Made by a program: the position numbers and the translations under genes. DNA of 32,114 nt from Acidimicrobiales bacterium (GTDB taxonomy: Bacteria; Actinomycetota; Acidimicrobiia; Acidimicrobiales; RAAP-2). This document shows, piece after piece, positions 1-30,186 of this stretch. The notes beneath the pieces were generated by a model. The model was not told where the DNA came from. It saw only the letters and a program-made list of their open reading frames with translations, and did no database searches. The DNA lies in assembly GCA_025351385.1 (NCBI GenBank), contig JANXWA010000016.1:1-32114 (forward strand). The letters run 5' to 3'. Every line of letters begins with the position of its first letter. Positions within the stretch are counted from its first letter, which is position 1.

Positions 1-609
1 GTCGCCGACCCGCTCATCGAGAAGATCGCCGAGCGGATCGACCGACTGAAGGTCGGTCCGGGGGACGACCCGTCGAGCGACTTCGGCCCGGTCATCACCA
101 AAGAGCACCGCGACCGCATCGTCGACTACGTGTCGACGGCCCCCGGCGACGGGATCACCGTCGTGCGAGACGGGACGAACCTCGCGAGCGGCCCGGGCTT
201 CTTCGTGGGGCCCTGCCTGCTCGACGGGGTGCGCCCCGGGATGCGGGCCTACGACGACGAGATCTTCGGCCCGGTGCTCGGCGTGGCACGGGTGGCCAAC
301 TACGACGACGCGGTCGCGATGATCAACGCCAACCCGTACGGCAACGGAGTGGCGCTCTTCACGCGCGACGGCAACGCCGCCCGGCTGTTCTCGCGCGACG
401 TCACCGTCGGGATGATCGGGATCAACGTGCCGATCCCGGTACCCATTGCCTCGTACTCGTTCGGCGGCTGGAAGAGCTCACTCTTCGGCCATTCGCACAT
501 CTACGGGCCCGAGGGATTCGCCTTCTACACCCGCGCCAAGGTCGTGACGACCCGCTGGCCCCAGCCGTCGGAGTCCCAGATCGACCTCGGCTTCCCCACG
601 ACCCGGTAG
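1..609 (+). CDS. mmsA: Methylmalonate-semialdehyde dehydrogenase (CoA-acylating), C-terminal part
   Basis: The reading frame is open from base 1 and ends at TAG 607-609, giving the last 202 residues of an aldehyde dehydrogenase. Family signatures are visible: DDEIFGPVLGV near residue 87, and a C-terminal stretch near residues 138-165 containing GINVPIPVPIASYSFGGW and then KSSLFG, typical of CoA-acylating methylmalonate-semialdehyde dehydrogenases rather than ordinary NAD-aldehyde dehydrogenases. These enzymes convert methylmalonate or malonate semialdehyde to propionyl-CoA or acetyl-CoA in valine, thymine and beta-alanine breakdown. The catalytic cysteine and most of the NAD fold lie upstream of the window. 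The next gene starts 3 bases after the stop, so the two are probably cotranscribed. Confidence 0.9.
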   Translation, partial: VADPLIEKIAERIDRLKVGPGDDPSSDFGPVITKEHRDRIVDYVSTAPGDGITVVRDGTNLASGPGFFVGPCLLDGVRPGMRAYDDEIFGPVLGVARVANYDDAVAMINANPYGNGVALFTRDGNAARLFSRDVTVGMIGINVPIPVPIASYSFGGWKSSLFGHSHIYGPEGFAFYTRAKVVTTRWPQPSESQIDLGFPTTR

Positions 610-18103: not shown

Positions 18104-19579
18104 GTGGAACTCGTCCTCGCCCTAGACGCCGGCACCTCCGGGGTGCGCACGGTCGCCTTCGACCACCGGGCCCGCGTCGTCGACGGCGCCTACCGCGAGC
18201 TGACCCAGCACTTCCCCCGTCCCGGCGAGGTCGAACACGACGCCGCCGAGATCGCCGACCTCGCCGTGGCGACCCTGCGCGAGGTCGCCAACCGCGTCCA
18301 CCATGACGGCCACCACGTCGCCACGGTCGGGATCACCAACCAACGTGAGACGACGATCGCCTTCGATCGCGAGAGTGGACACCTCCCCCACCACGCCCTC
18401 GTCTGGCAGGACCGTCGCACGTCGCCCTACTGCGAGCGACTCGAGGCGGCCGGCCACGGTCCGCTGGTGCGCGCGACGACCGGCCTCGTGCTCGACCCGT
18501 ACTTCTCAGCGACGAAGATGCGCTGGTTCCTGGACCACGCCCACATGGACGCCCTCGCGGCGCCGAGCTTCGCCACGGTCGACACGTGGCTCGCGTGGTG
18601 GCTCACCGGCGGCGTCGACGGTGGCACCTTCGTCACCGAGCCGTCAAACGCCTCGCGCACGATGTTGATGGACTTGGGGACGCTCGACTGGTCGCCGGCA
18701 ATGACCGAGCTGTTCGACGTCGACGAGGGGATGCTCGCCGACATCCTGCCCTCGACCACCACGTTCGGCACGATCAGTGCCGAGGTCGTGCCCGAGCTCG
18801 GGGGCGTCGCCGTCACGGGGATCCTCGGCGATCAGCAGTCGGCGCTCTTCGGCCAGGCCTGCTTCTCACCCGGCGTCGTCAAGGCCACCTACGGCACCGG
18901 CGCCTTCGTCCTGGCCAACGTGGGCGACAGCGACCCGGGGGTCTTCGACGGGTTGGTCACCACCGTCGCCTGGGACCTCGGCGCATTCGGACCGGCCGCG
19001 TACGCGGTGGAGGGATCGGCCTTCGTCGCCGGGGCGGCGGTGCAGTGGCTGCGTGACGAGCTCGGCTTCCTAACGAGCGCGGCCGACCTCGAAGCGCTGG
19101 CCAGCAGCGTGCCCGACAGCGGTGGCGTGCAGTTCGTGCCGGCCTTCACCGGCCTCGGCTCGCCATTCTGGCGTGCCGGAGCGCGCGGCTCGATCAGCGG
19201 TCTCAGTCGCGGCGCCGGGCGCGGCCACGTCGCGCGCGCGCTCGTCGAGGCGCTCGCCTACCAGGTGCGCGCCATGACCGACGCGTTCGCGCAAGGCGGC
19301 ATCGCGCTGCGCGAGGTGCGCGCCGACGGAGGCGCGGCGGCGATGGACCTCCTGATGGAACTCCAGGCGACGAACTCCCGCCTGCCCGTACTGCGCAGCT
19401 CCTCACTCGAGGCGACCGCGCGCGGCGCCGCGACCGTCGCCGGGCTCGAGATCGGACTGTGGGGCTCACTCGACGAGCTCGCCGGACTCTGGGAGTGCGA
19501 TCGACGCTTCGAACCCGACGAGCCGACCTTCGCGGACCTCGGCTACGCGGCGTGGCGAAGGGCTGTCGAACGCTCGTAG
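18104..19579 (+). CDS. glpK: Glycerol kinase
   Basis: 491 residues from the GTG at 18104; the open frame upstream is not family-like. FGGY kinase features: N-terminal phosphate loop LALDAGTSGVRTVAFD, GITNQRETTIAFD with the Arg-Glu pair that binds glycerol, WQDRRT, LDPYFSATKMRW with the substrate-contact Tyr, and GDQQSALFGQ with the catalytic Asp, followed by KATYGTGAFVLAN. It phosphorylates glycerol to glycerol-3-phosphate. No Shine-Dalgarno sequence precedes the GTG, but a TANNNT-type -10 (TAGCCT, 18091-18096) ends 7 bases before it, so a leaderless transcript is possible. It is divergent from nrdJ. Confidence 0.9.
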   Translation: MELVLALDAGTSGVRTVAFDHRARVVDGAYRELTQHFPRPGEVEHDAAEIADLAVATLREVANRVHHDGHHVATVGITNQRETTIAFDRESGHLPHHALVWQDRRTSPYCERLEAAGHGPLVRATTGLVLDPYFSATKMRWFLDHAHMDALAAPSFATVDTWLAWWLTGGVDGGTFVTEPSNASRTMLMDLGTLDWSPAMTELFDVDEGMLADILPSTTTFGTISAEVVPELGGVAVTGILGDQQSALFGQACFSPGVVKATYGTGAFVLANVGDSDPGVFDGLVTTVAWDLGAFGPAAYAVEGSAFVAGAAVQWLRDELGFLTSAADLEALASSVPDSGGVQFVPAFTGLGSPFWRAGARGSISGLSRGAGRGHVARALVEALAYQVRAMTDAFAQGGIALREVRADGGAAAMDLLMELQATNSRLPVLRSSSLEATARGAATVAGLEIGLWGSLDELAGLWECDRRFEPDEPTFADLGYAAWRRAVERS

Positions 19580-19617
19580 GAGCGGTAGTTTCTTAGCACG
19601 AGCAACCGGGGGGAATC

Positions 19618-20490
19618 GTGGAGAGTCTGACGTCCAAGGTGGTGCGCGAGGGTCTGTCGTTCGGCGAGAGCCCGCGGTGGCACGACGGTCGGCTGTGGTA
19701 CTCGGACTTCTATCGCCACGGCGTCTTCTCGATGGACGCCGACGGCTGGCACGAGCGTCTGGAGCACCCGGTGCCCGGCCAGCCGTCGGGCCTCGGCTGG
19801 CTGCCTGACGGCGACCTCCTTTGCGTCTCGGCAACCGACCACCGGGTGTTGCGCTTCGGCCCTGACGGCGAGTCGGTCTTCACCAACATCGCCGAGTACT
19901 GCGGCTTCTGGGCCAATGACATGGTCGTGTCGGCGAGCGGCCACAGCTACGTGGGCAACTTCGGATTCGACCTGCACGCGGTGCTGCGAACTGGCCAGTT
20001 GCCCCTCCCCGCACCAACCACCAACGTCGTCGTCATCAACCCCGTCGGGCGGGTCATTCAGGTGGTTCCCGACATGTCGTTCCCCAACGGCTCGGTGATC
20101 TCCCCCGACGGCGCGACCCTGATCGTCGGTGAGACCATGACGAATCGCTTGAGCGCCTTCACGATCGACGTCGACGGAACGCTGCGCGACCAGCGCGTAT
20201 GGGCGCAGCTCGACTTCGTCTTCAACGACGGGATGTGCCTGGACGCCGACGGCCAGATCTGGCTGGCCAACGCGATCACGAACCAATGCTTGCGAGTGCA
20301 GGAGGGAGGCGTCGTCACGGGCGTCGTGACGACGTGTGAGACCGCCTTCGCGTGCATGCTCGGCGGCGACGACGGGCGCACCCTCTACGTGATGACCGCC
20401 CCGTCCAGCGACCCACTCGAGATCGCCCAAGTCACGCTCGGCAAGATCGAGACCGCGGAGGTGGCCACTCCCGGCGCTGGGCTACCGTGA
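19618..20490 (+). CDS. SMP-30/gluconolactonase family protein
   Basis: 290 residues from the GTG at 19618, preceded by GGGGGGAA. It is a six-bladed beta-propeller of the SMP-30/gluconolaconase-like family. Likely metal ligands: Glu in LSFGESPRWHDG (about residue 17), Asn in MSFPNGSVISPDG, and Asp in FVFNDGMCLDADG; WANDMVV supplies a substrate-site Asn. Characterised members hydrolyse sugar lactones or related esters, but the substrate here is unknown. The stop overlaps the start of the DUF1254 gene (GTGA), so the two are coupled. Confidence 0.88.
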   Translation: MESLTSKVVREGLSFGESPRWHDGRLWYSDFYRHGVFSMDADGWHERLEHPVPGQPSGLGWLPDGDLLCVSATDHRVLRFGPDGESVFTNIAEYCGFWANDMVVSASGHSYVGNFGFDLHAVLRTGQLPLPAPTTNVVVINPVGRVIQVVPDMSFPNGSVISPDGATLIVGETMTNRLSAFTIDVDGTLRDQRVWAQLDFVFNDGMCLDADGQIWLANAITNQCLRVQEGGVVTGVVTTCETAFACMLGGDDGRTLYVMTAPSSDPLEIAQVTLGKIETAEVATPGAGLP

Positions 20491-21821
20491 CCCTCGATCC
20501 GACGCTGTCGCGCTCCGAGCTGGACCGGATTGCGCTCGACGCGTACCTGTACTTCTATCCCCTCGTCCTCATGGAGACGACGCGACTGGCGACGACCAAC
20601 TGATCGTACGGCGAGCGCGCCGGCGTCGGACCGATGGGCACGCTGGCCCATTCGAGGGCCTTCCCACCGGCGCACTTTCTAACGGTCGTGCGCCCCAACT
20701 TCGACACGCTCTACACGACGGCGTGGCTCGACCTCACGAACGGTCCCTACGTCATCGCGCTGCCGGCGATGGAGGGCCGATTCTTCATGCTCCCTCTCTA
20801 CGACATGTGGACCGACGTGTTCGCCTCACCGGGCACCCGCACGAACGGCACCGCCGCCTTCACCATCGCGATCTGCGCACCAGAGTGGCGCGGCACGCTG
20901 CCCGAGGGCGTCGCGCGTATCGACGCGACGACGCGCCGGGTCTGGGTCATCGGTCGGACCGAGACCAGGGGACCGGCGGACTACGGTGCCGTTCACGCGC
21001 TCCAGGACGCGATGGCGATGGCGCCACTCGCCACCTGGCCGCACTTTGCGCCGCCCCCCGACGACAAGGACCCGTCGCTCGACACGAAGACGCCGCCGAT
21101 GCGAAAGGTCGACCAGATGTCGAGCGCCGAGTTCTTCGCGACCGCCGCGCGCCTGGTCGCGACCGAGCGGCCCCACGCCACCGACTGGGGCATGGTGACC
21201 CGCCTCGCGCGCGTCGGGCTACGCGTCGGCGAGCCGTTCGCCGTGCAGGCCCAGTCGGGCCCCGTCATCGAGGCCTTCACTGGGGCACCCGGCGCGGCAC
21301 AGCGCGAGATGGCGTCGCGCGCACGCGCAGTCGCCCCCTCGGTCGACGGATGGATCGCCTCGGGTGAGCTCGGCGTCTACGCCAACAACTACCTAAGGCG
21401 TGCGATGACGGCGCGCTGGGGTCTCGGCGCCAATCCGCCCGAGGAGTCGATCTACCCGAACCTCGAGCGCGACGCGCAGGGCTCGACGCTCGACGGGACC
21501 TACCGCTACCTGCTGCGCTTCGAGGCCGGCGGCCTCCCACCGGTCGACGCGTTCTGGTCACTCACGGTCTACGACCGCCAGGGCTTCCACGTCGCCAACG
21601 AGATCGACCGCTTCGCGTTGGGTGACCGTGACGAGCTCATCTACGGCGCCGACGGCTCGCTGGAGATCCTGCTCGCCCACGAACGGCCGAGCGACGAGTG
21701 GGTCGCCAACTGGCTACCGGTCCCCGCCGAGGGCTTCATGGTGACGCTGCGCCTCTACCTGCCCCGTGAGGACGCCGTCACGCAACGCTGGACGGCACCG
21801 GCGGCCGTGCGGCTCGGCTAG
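20487..21821 (+). pseudogene. DUF1254/DUF1214 protein gene with an in-frame TGA
   Basis: Read from the GTG at 20487 (4-base GTGA overlap with the SMP-30 gene) the frame encodes a normal-length DUF1254-DUF1214 protein of about 444 codons, except for a TGA at 20601-20603. The 38 codons before it carry the family N-terminus (LDAYLYFYPLVLMETTRL, then ATTN). In the same frame after it come SYGERAGVGPMGTLAHSRAF, VVRPNFDTLYTTAWLDL and FASPGTRTNG (DUF1254), and PPVDAFWSLTVYDRQG (DUF1214). Everything downstream is intact to 21821. Explanations: a nonsense mutation, a sequencing error (TGG to TGA), or reinitiation at the ATG at 20634, giving 395 residues. The family has no settled biochemical function. 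Confidence 0.75.
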
Positions 21822-23021
21822 CTAGTCGAGCTTCGTCAGCGCCCTCTTCAGGTTGCGCACGGCCTGGTGCGTGCGCAGCTCGTTCTCGATCAGCGCGAAG
21901 CGCACGTGGCCGTCGCCGCCCCCGCCGAAGCCGACGCCCGGGCTGGTCGCCACGTCCGCCTCCTCGATGAGGAACTTGGAGAACTCCAGCGAGCTCATCT
22001 CGCGGTAAGGCTCGGGGATCGGCGCCCAGACGAACATCGAACCGCGCGGCGTCGTCACCGGCCAGCCGATGCGCGCGAGGCCCTCGATCAGGGTGTCACG
22101 ACGGGACTGGTAGATCACGCGCAGCTCTTCGGGGTAGTCGACGGCCTCATTCATCGCCACAATCGCCGCGATCTGTACCGGCTGGAAGGTGCCGTAGTCG
22201 AGGTAGCTCTTCAGCTTGGTCAGCGCCGCCACGATCTCGGCGTTGCCGACCATGAAGCCGACGCGCCAGCCCGCCATCGAGAACGACTTCGTGAGCGTGT
22301 AGAGCTCGACGCAGCACTCCCGGGCGCGCGGCACCTGGAGGATCGAGGGCGGCCGGTAGCCGTCGAAGCCGAGGTCGGCGTAGGCGAAGTCGTGGCAGAT
22401 CACGATCCCGTGCTCGAGGGCGAAGCCGACCAGGCGCTCCATGAATGCCAGGTCCACGCACGCACTCGTGGGATTGTGTGGGAAGGAGCAGATGATGGCT
22501 CGGGGCTTCACGACGGCCCCCTCCCACGCGGCGACGAGCCCGTCGAAGAAGTCGTCACCGGGGTCGTTGGTGCTGGTGCCCGGGTCGTGCATGGGCACGG
22601 TGATCACAGTCGCCCCGGCGAAACCGGGGCCGGCGAGGTGGATCGGGTAGCTCGGGCTCGGCACGATGGCGCTGTCACCCGGACCGAGCAGGACCCACAT
22701 CAGGTGGGTCAGGCCCTCCTTGGCGCCGATGGTCGTCACCACCTCGGTGTCGGGGTCGAGGTCGACGTCGAAGAGGCTCTTGTAGCGCGTGGCAATCGCG
22801 AGGCGGAGGTTGGGGATGCCGCGACTGGCGCTGTAGCGGTGATTGCGCGGGTTGCGCGCGGCCTCGGCCAGTTTGGCGACCGCCACGTCGGGGCTCGGCA
22901 GGTCGGGGTTCCCGAAGCCGAAGTCGATCACGTCGCGCCCCGCGGCGCGCGCCTCGGCCTTCAGTCCGTTGATCTGGGCGAAGACGTAGGGCGGCAGTCC
23001 GTTGATGCGGCGAAATTCCAT
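21822..23021 (-). CDS. alaC: Alanine/glutamate-pyruvate aminotransferase, AlaC-like
   Basis: 399 residues, PLP fold type I. It follows E. coli AlaC closely along its length: RINGLPPYVF at the N-terminus, DFGFGNPDLPSP, HRYSASRGIPNLR, VPSPSYPIHL, FPHNPTSACVDL, CHDFAYADLGFDGY, and TLTKSFSMAGWRVGF with the PLP lysine; the end matches VRFALIEN. It makes alanine from pyruvate with glutamate as donor. It begins 17 bases after the LLM oxidoreductase gene and ends immediately beside the convergent DUF1254 gene, with no base between the two stop codons. Confidence 0.87.
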   Translation of the reverse strand: MEFRRINGLPPYVFAQINGLKAEARAAGRDVIDFGFGNPDLPSPDVAVAKLAEAARNPRNHRYSASRGIPNLRLAIATRYKSLFDVDLDPDTEVVTTIGAKEGLTHLMWVLLGPGDSAIVPSPSYPIHLAGPGFAGATVITVPMHDPGTSTNDPGDDFFDGLVAAWEGAVVKPRAIICSFPHNPTSACVDLAFMERLVGFALEHGIVICHDFAYADLGFDGYRPPSILQVPRARECCVELYTLTKSFSMAGWRVGFMVGNAEIVAALTKLKSYLDYGTFQPVQIAAIVAMNEAVDYPEELRVIYQSRRDTLIEGLARIGWPVTTPRGSMFVWAPIPEPYREMSSLEFSKFLIEEADVATSPGVGFGGGGDGHVRFALIENELRTHQAVRNLKRALTKLD

Positions 23022-23038: not shown

Positions 23039-23713
23039 TCATCGAGTCGAGCGCCATTCACCCAATGCGCCGATCGGCGCGTCCGGGCTGAGGATCGCCC
23101 ACGTCGCTCCGGCGAGGGCCAGTCCGTCGAGGCGCTGGCCCAGTTCCGTTGGCACCGGGCCGGCCCAGTTCACCGGACCGCGCTGGGCCACTTCCCGCAG
23201 CCGCTCGTCGTCGACGTTCCAGAGGTTCACCGTGGCGCCGAGCTCGCGCGCCAGCTCGTTGGTCGCCTCGGCCCCGGCCCCGATCCACACCGGCATCGTC
23301 GGCAGGAGGGCGAGGGCCGCCTCTCGGATCAGGGTCCGTCGGGCGTCGGGCGAGAGCGACGCCAATCCGTAGGCCTCGTTCTCGGGGGCCGAGAGGTGGT
23401 CACCGGCGCCGAGCGCCGCGATGACCCGACCCGGGGCGATTCGCTCCAGGGTCCGGAACTGGCCCACCAGGTGCTCGGTGCCAACGAGCCCGACGCGTGC
23501 GACGAGCGGTCCGACGACGAGCCCTTCGTGTCGCCGGGCGATCGCCGCGAGCAGCGGGAACGGGGCGAGCGACGGACGCAGCGGCGAGCCTATGGGCCAG
23601 AGGTGGTCGTAGGCGAAGACGCCGTCGAGCCCGCAGCGCGCGGCCTCGTCAGCGAGGGCGAACGCGTCGTCGCCCCCGCTGCGAAAGGTCGGCAGCAGGA
23701 CGCCCAGTCTCAC
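23039..23713 (-). CDS. Short LLM-class flavin/F420-type oxidoreductase
   Basis: 224 residues from the GTG at 23713, inside the stop of the ROK kinase gene (GTGA overlap). Luciferase-like motifs: VRLGVLLPTF, ADEAARCGLDGVFAYDHLWP, GPLVARVGLVGTEHLVGQF, ERIAPGRVIAALGAGDHLSAP, and a C-terminal LAGATWAIL strand. It is shorter than most LLM enzymes (280-340 residues), with the middle barrel segment reduced. Coupling to a sugar kinase makes a sugar-phosphate substrate, as in F420-dependent glucose-6-phosphate dehydrogenase, a possibility, but the sequence alone does not show this. Confidence 0.8.
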   Translation of the reverse strand: MRLGVLLPTFRSGGDDAFALADEAARCGLDGVFAYDHLWPIGSPLRPSLAPFPLLAAIARRHEGLVVGPLVARVGLVGTEHLVGQFRTLERIAPGRVIAALGAGDHLSAPENEAYGLASLSPDARRTLIREAALALLPTMPVWIGAGAEATNELARELGATVNLWNVDDERLREVAQRGPVNWAGPVPTELGQRLDGLALAGATWAILSPDAPIGALGEWRSTR

Positions 23714-24681
23714 GAATGACGCTCGAAGGCGACGAGAGCGGCGCCCATCGCCCCGGAGCGGGGACCGAACATTGAGGAAGTGACGGTGATCGCCGGGCGG
23801 GCGCTGTAGCCCTCGACGAGGTCCACGAGGTACTCCCGGGCCGAAGGCAGCACGAGCTCGGACGCGCTCGAGAGCCCGCCGCCGATCACGAAGTGGCCGC
23901 AGTCGAGGATCGCGGCGAGATTGGCCAGTCCCAGCGCGAGCCACCAGCCGACCTCCTTCATGAGCATCACGGCCTCGTCGAGGCCCCGGGCGGCGGCGGC
24001 CGTCACGTCCTCGGCGCGAACCGAGGCCGCATTGCCGCACTCGGTCACGAGCGTCGGCAGGCGGCCGGCGATGGCCGCCTCGCGGGTCAGTCGATGAAGC
24101 CCCCCGCCCGAGGCGTAGCGCTCCCAGCAGCCATGACCCCCGCAGTGGCAGGCCGCGCCGCGAGCGACCACGACCATGTGGCCGATCTCGCCCGCGAAGC
24201 CGCTGCGCCCGCGCACCAGCTTGCCGTCAGCGACCACGCCCCCGCCGATGCCCGTGCCGAGGGTGACCATCACGAAGTCGTCGATGCCCCGTCCGGCCCC
24301 CCACTCGTGCTCGGCGAGTGCAGCGCAGTTGGCGTCGTTCTCGCAGAACACGATCGAGCTGGTGAGGGACTGGCCGAGCAGCGCGCCGAGGTCCGCGCCC
24401 GAGGCGGTCTGGAGGTTCGGCGCGAAGGCGAGTCGCCCGTCGCGACGCATCATGCCCGGCAGCCCGATGCCGACGGGCACATCACCGGACCGCACTCCCT
24501 GGCGATCGCACAGCTCCTTGATCAGCTCGGTGAGGACCTTCGCGGTCGCGGCGCCGGCGCCGTCACTGTGGTCGTGGGGCGTCTGGGCCCGAACTTCGCC
24601 CAGCACCCGCCCGTCGCGCGCGACGATCAGCGCCAAGGCCTTCGTCCCGCCGACGTCGACGCCGATCGCCACGTCGGTCAT
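23710..24681 (-). CDS. ROK family sugar kinase (probable glucokinase)
   Basis: 323 residues. N-terminal phosphate-binding DVGGTK at residues 9-14; catalytic Asp in FCENDANCAALAEHEWG; GTGIGGGVV; FAGEIGHMVV followed by the ROK zinc motif CHCGGHGCWERYASG (His and three Cys). The GEIGH histidine and catalytic ENDAN match the glucokinase branch rather than repressors, and no N-terminal helix-turn-helix is present. It phosphorylates glucose or a related hexose with ATP. The ATG overlaps the SRPBCC gene stop (4 bases), and its own stop overlaps the LLM start. Confidence 0.88.
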   Translation of the reverse strand: MTDVAIGVDVGGTKALALIVARDGRVLGEVRAQTPHDHSDGAGAATAKVLTELIKELCDRQGVRSGDVPVGIGLPGMMRRDGRLAFAPNLQTASGADLGALLGQSLTSSIVFCENDANCAALAEHEWGAGRGIDDFVMVTLGTGIGGGVVADGKLVRGRSGFAGEIGHMVVVARGAACHCGGHGCWERYASGGGLHRLTREAAIAGRLPTLVTECGNAASVRAEDVTAAAARGLDEAVMLMKEVGWWLALGLANLAAILDCGHFVIGGGLSSASELVLPSAREYLVDLVEGYSARPAITVTSSMFGPRSGAMGAALVAFERHS

Positions 24682-28312: not shown

Positions 28313-28384
<72 letters not shown>

Positions 28385-28439
28385 CTCACGCATTTCGCCC
28401 CACGCGCCAACTGCCACTTGCCTTTTCGATTGGCCACCG

Positions 28440-28616: not shown

Positions 28617-29840
28617 CTATTCCTCGCGAAGCGCCCGGAGCTGTGATCGAACGGTGTCCAGCACTTCGGGGGCGACGTGCTCGGTCTCGGTCGCGGCGAG
28701 CTCCATCGCTTCAGGTACCCGTGAGACCACGTCGTCGGTTACGCCCGTCGCCGTCTCTCGTGACATGCCCCATCGCGCGGCCTCGTTGATGACTCGTGAA
28801 CCGGTCACCCGGTCAAGACGCTGAACACCGTCGACGTACATCGCGAGGTGCTCGACTCCGTAGCGGTGCGTCGACATGACGTCGTAGAGCGGCGCCAGCG
28901 ACAGGATGCCTTCTCGAGAATGCAGCAGTGAGTAGTTCTTCGCGTGCGCGTCGCCGTTCGCGACGAGGACGTGCACGACGAGGTACGCCAGAAGTGTCGA
29001 AAGCGACTCGGGGTCGACTCCACTCAGCGTGTGCGCCAGATCGCGAAGGCCGGGCCCGCCGTCTTCTTGATACTTACGGCCCGGGGGATATCCCAGGGCC
29101 TGACAGAAGTCCTCTTGGTGCACCCGCGTGACCGTCCCGTGGGCGTCCACGAGGCGGTCGTAACGCTCGACGACGAGCACGGGGCGACCGTGCACCTCAA
29201 TCGTCTCGACCCCGGCCACGGGAACGCTCAAGTGCTTCGCGAGTCTCATGCAGAACGCCTCGTTCGCCACCGAGCGAGGAATCCGACGGATCTCCGGCTT
29301 CAAGATGTGCGTCGATGGCGTGCCGTCAACCGGGCGGCCCCAGTGTCCATCCGGCATGCGCGTGAGCAGCAACTTCTGCTGCGCACCCCCCAGAGAAAGG
29401 CGCACGCGAGTGCTCGCCCCGAGAGGCGCCGTGCGCAAGTTGGCGATGAGCTCGGCCAACTCGCCCTCATCGAGAGGCTCCGCCGTCGTGGTCGTCTCCG
29501 GCCAAGGTGGTGATTCTCCTGCTGGCTGGATGACGAGTGCGCCGGCGCACTCCCTTCCCAGTACCGCGAGCATCCCGAAGACGTCATCCACCCGAAGGCC
29601 GAGTTCTGCGGCGAGCGCCCCGAGGGGCTCCTCTTCGGGCAGCAGGCCAGCGAGGAAGGGACGCACCGAGCCACTGGTGAAGGTTTCACCTGACACCGGC
29701 AGCGACAGCGACAGGAGCGGCGTGCCGAGGGTAAACGTCGCTCGGGCCTCGGGCGTGTAGGCGAGGCGTAGGCGCTGTCGGTGTCGCTCCACCGTGGCGA
29801 CTCGGATGCCGTAGAGCCAGAGCTCCAGGACGTCGGCCAC
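28617..29840 (-). CDS. hipA: HipA-type serine/threonine kinase toxin
   Basis: 407 residues from the GTG at 29840, sharing one base with the hipB TAG (TAGTG). HipA features in order: N-terminal subdomain ELWLYGIRVATVER, LLPEEEPLGALAAELGL, the ATP-site loop RVRLSLGGAQQKLLLTRMPD, THILKPE with the ATP-binding lysine, VANEAFCMRLAKHL, VERYDR, HQEDFCQALGYPPGRKYQED, the catalytic NGDAHAKNYSLLH and the metal-binding PLYDVMST. All kinase residues I can check are present, so the toxin should be active. Classical HipA phosphorylates glutamyl-tRNA synthetase and induces dormancy; the target here is unknown. A much longer frame upstream is an overlap with hipB. Confidence 0.9.
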   Translation of the reverse strand: MADVLELWLYGIRVATVERHRQRLRLAYTPEARATFTLGTPLLSLSLPVSGETFTSGSVRPFLAGLLPEEEPLGALAAELGLRVDDVFGMLAVLGRECAGALVIQPAGESPPWPETTTTAEPLDEGELAELIANLRTAPLGASTRVRLSLGGAQQKLLLTRMPDGHWGRPVDGTPSTHILKPEIRRIPRSVANEAFCMRLAKHLSVPVAGVETIEVHGRPVLVVERYDRLVDAHGTVTRVHQEDFCQALGYPPGRKYQEDGGPGLRDLAHTLSGVDPESLSTLLAYLVVHVLVANGDAHAKNYSLLHSREGILSLAPLYDVMSTHRYGVEHLAMYVDGVQRLDRVTGSRVINEAARWGMSRETATGVTDDVVSRVPEAMELAATETEHVAPEVLDTVRSQLRALREE

Positions 29841-30109
29841 TACCAGTCCGACCGCTGAAGAGTCATGCGAACCCCTAGGCGCTTGAGGATGACCACGATC
29901 CGTCGCAGCTGCTCGGTCTCCTGGCCGTTCTCGAGGCGCGACAGGTAGGGCGCACTCACGCCGACGCTGTCGGCCAACTCGGCCTGGGTGAGTCCGGCCT
30001 GGAGGCGGTAGTGGCGGATGGCGGGTCCCAAGGAGGCGGCCGTGTACACCCGGTACGGGTCTTCTGAAGTCGGGTTGTCGAACTTGCTCATATCCATAAG
30101 ATAGTGCAT
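29840..30109 (-). CDS. hipB: HipB-type Xre antitoxin/repressor
   Basis: 89 residues. The ATG at 30109 is chosen because AAGGA ends 5 bases upstream; in-frame ATGs at 30097 and 30091 lack a ribosome site. The Xre helix-turn-helix is clear: GPAIRHYRLQAGLTQAELAD, then SVGVSAPYLSRLENGQE near residues 45-62, with a C-terminal helix RIVVILKRLGVRMTLQ. It should neutralise the coupled HipA kinase and repress the operon. The upstream region carries a promoter and two palindromes. Confidence 0.9.
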   Translation of the reverse strand: MHYLMDMSKFDNPTSEDPYRVYTAASLGPAIRHYRLQAGLTQAELADSVGVSAPYLSRLENGQETEQLRRIVVILKRLGVRMTLQRSDW

Positions 30110-30123
30110 TTTGTCCTTGATTC

Positions 30124-30133
30124 CGAATATTCG
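30124..30133. promoter_or_regulatory. Palindrome in the hipBA leader
   Basis: CGAATATTCG, a perfect 10-base palindrome in an AT-rich stretch between the predicted hipBA transcription start (about 30149) and the hipB ATG. Its position suits a downstream operator, though its half-sites are unlike those of the upstream palindrome. Confidence 0.3.
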
Positions 30134-30156
30134 TAAGATGAGTCTTTCGGGCAGAT

Positions 30157-30186
30157 ATTACAGATAATCGCAATGCTCGACGTCAA
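30157..30186 (-). promoter_or_regulatory. hipBA promoter
   Basis: On the minus strand, TTGACG (30181-30186), an 18-base spacer, and TGTAAT (30157-30162). The same two hexamers form the nrdJ promoter in this window with a 17-base spacer. The predicted leader is about 40 bases. The TTG of the -35 is the last part of a perfect 22-bp palindrome. Confidence 0.5.

Follow-up and report, generated by a model that had tools for sequence, protein, structure and literature searches.

The stretch of DNA analysed here (the window) comprises bases 1–32114 of contig C24 in a draft assembly of 2.18 Mb (36 contigs, 97.08% complete). It carries a gene of the DUF1254/DUF1214 family with an in-frame TGA, flanked by an SMP-30/gluconolactonase-like gene and an aminotransferase gene. 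The features are given below with the basis for each.

19618–20490, plus strand: SMP-30/gluconolactonase-like gene directly upstream, frame intact (PF08450, 8.6e-35).
20487–20490, plus strand: GTGA, in which the stop of SMP-30 and the start of DUF1254 overlap (sequence; the same junction is present in 3 of 12 relatives).
20487–20603, plus strand: 5' fragment of 38 sense codons with the N-terminal helix, then TGA (translation, alignment of relatives, helix predicted at residues 9–37).
20601–20603, plus strand: in-frame TGA at codon 39 (sequence and translation; the 20 homologous places, found in 19 of the 99 genomes of the genus, have no other internal stop).
20634–21821, plus strand: remaining open frame from ATG 20634, 395 amino acids, DUF1254 plus DUF1214 (open reading frame list, Pfam).
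21822–23021, minus strand: convergent aminotransferase gene, frame intact, a conserved neighbour (PF00155, 7.5e-52).

The DUF1254/DUF1214 frame runs from GTG 20487 to TAG 21819–21821. In the translation of bases 20475–22000 its sole interruption was the TGA at 20601–20603, which is codon 39 of 445 and is followed by 405 sense codons up to the TAG. Translated in a single frame, the gene reads AYLYFYPLVLMETTRLATTN, then the TGA at 20601–20603, then SYGERAGVGPMGTLAHSRAFPPAHFLTVVRPNFDTLY. The gene belongs to the DUF1254/DUF1214 family, as both domains scored above their gathering cut-offs in the part from ATG 20634 onward (PF06863, 5.3e-43, 146.9 bits against 22.2; PF06742, 8.4e-33, 113.7 bits against 25), and the 38 residues before the TGA align with homologues. 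The GTG start overlaps the SMP-30 stop (TGA 20488–20490) as GTGA. The preliminary description had reported an in-frame TGA within an otherwise intact gene of this family, family-like sequence on both sides of it and a start overlapping the SMP-30 gene through GTGA, and these observations were all confirmed. A second DUF1254/DUF1214 copy, which could make the window copy dispensable, was not found in the organism's own genome at E ≤ 0.001.

Of 32 non-duplicate relatives, 12 have an SMP-30 homologue immediately upstream, and in the flank of the other 20 nothing matched at E ≤ 1e-4. The GTGA junction recurs in three of these 12 (L010, L017 and L019). An aminotransferase homologue, 80–90% identical, was present in the flank of 11 non-duplicate relatives, and the nearer relatives keep the gene order SMP-30, DUF1254, aminotransferase. 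Elsewhere in the window, the listed Pfam-supported luciferase-like and ROK frames on the minus strand (23039–24040 and 23710–24681) have about 330 bases in common, the true start of the luciferase-like gene probably being later than that of its longest frame, and a tRNA-Gly (TCC) on the plus strand at 28314–28385 lies near a HipA-like gene at 28617–30173 on the minus strand (PF07804, PF13657).

The sequences on both sides of the TGA are those of one DUF1254/DUF1214 protein. Third-position GC was 0.89 before the stop and 0.90 after it, with 0.90 in the SMP-30 gene. In the predicted model of the read-through protein (mean pLDDT 91.3) there is a helix at residues 9–37, and the loop after this helix contains the stop. 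In the alignment of relatives the first helix is conserved, with a mean majority share of 0.63 at residues 9–37 against 0.41 at the linker, residues 38–49. Structure comparison matched the read-through model to 3u07_C (Z 34.4, rmsd 3.9, 379 aligned; the model range, 11..444, gives end residues only) and to 3vb9_A (Z 33.7, rmsd 3.8, 408 aligned; model range 3..443, likewise end residues only); the more distant 6ans_A (Z 17.6, 280 aligned) was matched only from residue 31 on. Rows beneath the top four had Z ≤ 5.0 and were taken as background, as were ranks 9–13 of the structure search, with TM-scores ≤ 0.14 despite E ≤ 0.001. As modelled, the read-through protein fits the solved DUF1254/DUF1214 fold with its first helix included. 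It is similar in sequence to the family members VPA0106 (PDB 3u07) and VPA0735 (PDB 2p3y and 3vb9), and its overall fold is that of 3u07 and 3vb9; unlike these two, the window gene is interrupted by a stop past the first helix, and ordinary translation therefore yields no full-length protein. Among the papers searched, none named both DUF1254 and DUF1214. The alternative that ATG 20634 is the true start and the upstream similarity arose by chance was rejected, because relatives can be aligned over the 38 residues that precede the stop, and these residues include the predicted, conserved first helix.

Homologues of the gene were then searched for stops in overlapping genus, family and class samples. 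Within the genus, 19 of 99 genomes held a homologue (20 places, three genomes having partial matches only), and an internal stop was seen in the window copy only. In the family sample, 40 places were found in 36 of 150 genomes, and two of them had a stop, the window copy and G139; in the class sample, with 32 places in 28 of 395 genomes at E ≤ 1e-30, the window copy alone had one. The genus and class samples show a disrupted frame where the relatives have an uninterrupted one, as in a young pseudogene. Among named records with a similar gene, three of six are titled Acidimicrobiaceae, including the most similar one (62%).

Two of the homologues are themselves unusual. The distant homologue in G139 (L038, contig C470) has an in-frame TAA just before the first helix, at about locus base 1500, with MSGTDELPPEKL upstream of it and a Met two residues past it; perhaps the true start simply lies after the TAA. 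In a class homologue from another family (L103, G415:C47:30400–32386), the helix MTITAADARTIAKEAYIFHYPLVMYYR and the body DIVTPNNDSPYSYAW... are in different frames (about locus bases 530–720), which represents a frameshift or an assembly error between the two. The stop counts do not show frame changes; G415 alone was inspected for one, since its match began at residue 65.

For comparisons at the level of single residues, a core set of 27 relatives plus the window was used. From this set were dropped two copies of the window (L001 and L008), three entries judged from their identical rows to duplicate the genomes of L010, L019 and L017 (L002, L006 and L007, respectively), one C-terminal piece (L022) and five sequences below 40% identity (L020, L021, L036, L037 and L038). 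Trees were built from 12 sequences, or 11 for FGGY, which was only partial in most rows. In the gene tree the sister of the window copy is L010 (support 0.994), which carries TGG (Trp) at the stop column; L010 is likewise sister in the aminotransferase tree (0.814) and is not so in the SMP-30 and FGGY trees, where support is weak. The 27 relatives have Val (7), Thr (5), Gly (5), Ser (4), Cys (2) and one each of Trp, Ile, Ala and Leu at this column, L033 having Thr in the multiple alignment and Glu in a pairwise one. It had been proposed that Trp in an alignment of orthologues would point to a change from TGG to TGA. The codon of the sister agrees with this, but Trp occurs in just that one relative of the core set, and on the strength of L010 tryptophan is a plausible earlier residue. 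Residue 39 ranks seventh of 444 in variability (29 relatives), and since the column is so variable, no particular residue seems to be needed there.

One rival reading is that the TGA is decoded as an amino acid, whether Trp, Sec or another, and the Trp of the sister at this column speaks in its favor. No UCA anticodon was present among the 48 tRNA hits of the assembly, all of which have anticodon calls (L061 through L041, the identical place), and tRNA-Trp was of the CCA type only. No tRNA-Sec scored above the cut-off among the 150 of 416 candidates that were scored; the best reached 44.8 against 47 and is called tRNA-Ser by ARAGORN. SelB was also not found above its cut-off in the assembly (97.08% complete), the best match (201 against 242) lying within a frame of 398 codons, the size of EF-Tu. 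TGA is the commonest stop of the 17 Pfam-supported window genes (TGA 8, TAG 6, TAA 3). The 60 bases from the UGA onward fold at −25.5 against −24.87 for shuffled sequences (sd 2.86, z −0.22), giving no sign of a hairpin, and Cys stands at the column in just two of 27 relatives. Selenoprotein genes are unlike this one in having tRNA-Sec and SelB in the genome and a hairpin after the UGA, and genomes that read UGA as Trp differ in having a UCA tRNA and in leaving TGA unused as a stop. Recoding as Trp or Sec was rejected on the tRNAs present, the SelB and tRNA-Sec scores, the use of TGA as a stop and the folding of the RNA, and a decoded TGA of any kind is scarcely credible.

Restart of translation was considered next to recoding. 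By this account the gene is still functional: ribosomes would restart at ATG 20634, and the 395-residue protein would be sufficient by itself or with the 38-residue peptide. The ATG is in frame and lies 30 bases 3' of the stop, the Pfam matches of both domains fall wholly inside the 395 residues, the break comes at the variable linker, and 6ans_A, which has the same fold, is matched just from model residue 31. An E. coli ribosome profiling paper refers to studies of restart past nonsense mutations in E. coli phoA and argues that restart by retained ribosomes is not a major coupling mechanism (PMC7538156); literature searches for premature stops and for restart at nonsense codons returned mostly studies of eukaryotes. 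The in-frame ATG shortly past the stop is what the window gene shares with bacterial cases of restart after a nonsense codon, and the lack of a strong predicted ribosome-binding site sets it apart from them. Computed Shine–Dalgarno pairing, for which we assumed the anti-SD core, was −2.6 kcal/mol at ATG 20634, against a median of −2.7 kcal/mol over 889 ATG and GTG codons on the plus strand of the window and −9.4 kcal/mol at the SMP-30 start. The native GTG 20487 was predicted to be about equally weak, at just −3.0 kcal/mol, which means that the weakness of a site does not prove it unused. Also against restart are the helix at residues 9–37 that would be lost, which is well conserved, confidently predicted and inside the range matched to 3u07 and 3vb9, and the other genus places, none of which (0 of 19) has an internal stop, partial matches only being available for three genomes. 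A separate promoter for ATG 20634 was rejected on a scan of 19400–22100 for sigma-70 promoters, which found none ahead of the ATG; the promoters of the organism itself may differ. The same scan region held terminator-like sites at 19571–19584 and 20200–20212 (0.6 expected), neither of them between the stop and the ATG. From the sequence, restart at 20634 is weakly possible, and a gene kept functional by it is improbable. As to the reinitiation at 20634 suggested in the preliminary description, the in-frame ATG makes it possible; the predicted ribosome-binding site, however, is of average strength, and the conserved helix would be missing from the product.

A further variant is a two-chain protein, in which the 38-residue helix peptide, coupled to SMP-30, and the 395-residue body from ATG 20634 would assemble non-covalently. 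It gains slightly from the position of the stop at the variable linker after the first helix and from the split copy in G415, and is nonetheless very hard to credit.

The age of the event was assessed from conserved columns, substitution rates and branch lengths. The window protein departs from 2 of 74 conserved columns, and the 27 relatives depart from 0 to 8 of 55 to 77. Its terminal branch in the gene tree is 0.325, against 0.334 for the sister L010. In pairwise comparison with the seven nearest full-length relatives, the downstream part gave dN 0.30–0.39 and dS 0.68–1.34, and the 5' fragment dN 0.22–0.32 and dS 0.65–1.71; dN is thus lower than dS on either side of the stop, though dS is high and the 5' fragment spans just 29–37 codons. 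None of these three measures gave a clear sign of relaxed selection, at low power: because the closest relative is 64% identical, the tests have little power for the last short piece of the branch and say only that the gene was constrained along nearly the whole of it. An old pseudogene was rejected on the conserved columns, third-position GC, dN against dS and branch length. As there is no decay, with few changes in conserved columns and a branch length like that of the sister, the event is young, if real, or else an error. In the SMP-30 tree (12 sequences, rooted at L024) no sequence lies farther from the root than that of the window (0.735, the others 0.34–0.686), its SMP-30 frame being intact; this might hint at looser constraint on the SMP-30/DUF1254 pair, tree support being weak there.

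Taken together, the locus probably records a recent single-base nonsense substitution, fixed in the lineage or carried by the dominant strain of the sample, that turned codon 39 of an otherwise undamaged gene into TGA. From GTG 20487, ribosomes would make 38 residues and stop at the TGA, and at most a small amount of the shortened 395-residue protein would come from ATG 20634. What is seen directly is the stop, the intact remainder, the stop-free copies in relatives and the recoding machinery undetected in the assembly; we infer a genuine base, a loss or strong reduction of function, and tryptophan as the ancestral residue. The trees of SMP-30 and FGGY that do not place L010 as sister count against this reading, as do the long SMP-30 root-to-tip distance and the place of the break in the variable linker just past the helix, where it might do less harm than elsewhere, and an assembly or consensus error would look identical. 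Such an error in the draft genome, the real gene being intact, is the main rival and is rather unlikely. It would fit a draft assembly in 36 contigs and damage confined to a single codon of a gene that otherwise appears constrained. Against it, the SMP-30, FGGY and aminotransferase frames are open across their full matches, so the stretch is not visibly error-rich, and a single transition separates the TGA from the codon of the sister, as is often the case for real mutations.

Read as a nonsense substitution, the window gene resembles young bacterial pseudogenes interrupted by a nonsense codon, with one premature stop, stop-free relatives and no further decay yet. Nothing sets it apart from them; the stop happens to fall in the variable linker that joins the first helix to the body. 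Of the explanations offered in the preliminary description, the recent event is favored by the lack of further decay, the normal branch length, the intact genus copies and the Trp codon in the sister, whereas bypass of the stop found no support in the tRNA, SelB, stop usage and RNA folding results and reinitiation stays at the level of a possibility. The interruption has the appearance of an ordinary mutation of recent date or of an error in the assembly, and not of a special reading of the code.

Were the two-chain protein true, the locus would be a natural experiment in which one base change turned one protein into two chains. As it stands, the importance of the finding is small, another premature stop in a draft genome, and its use is as a worked negative in which tRNAs, selenocysteine machinery, stop usage, RNA folding and conservation of the site are all ordinary.
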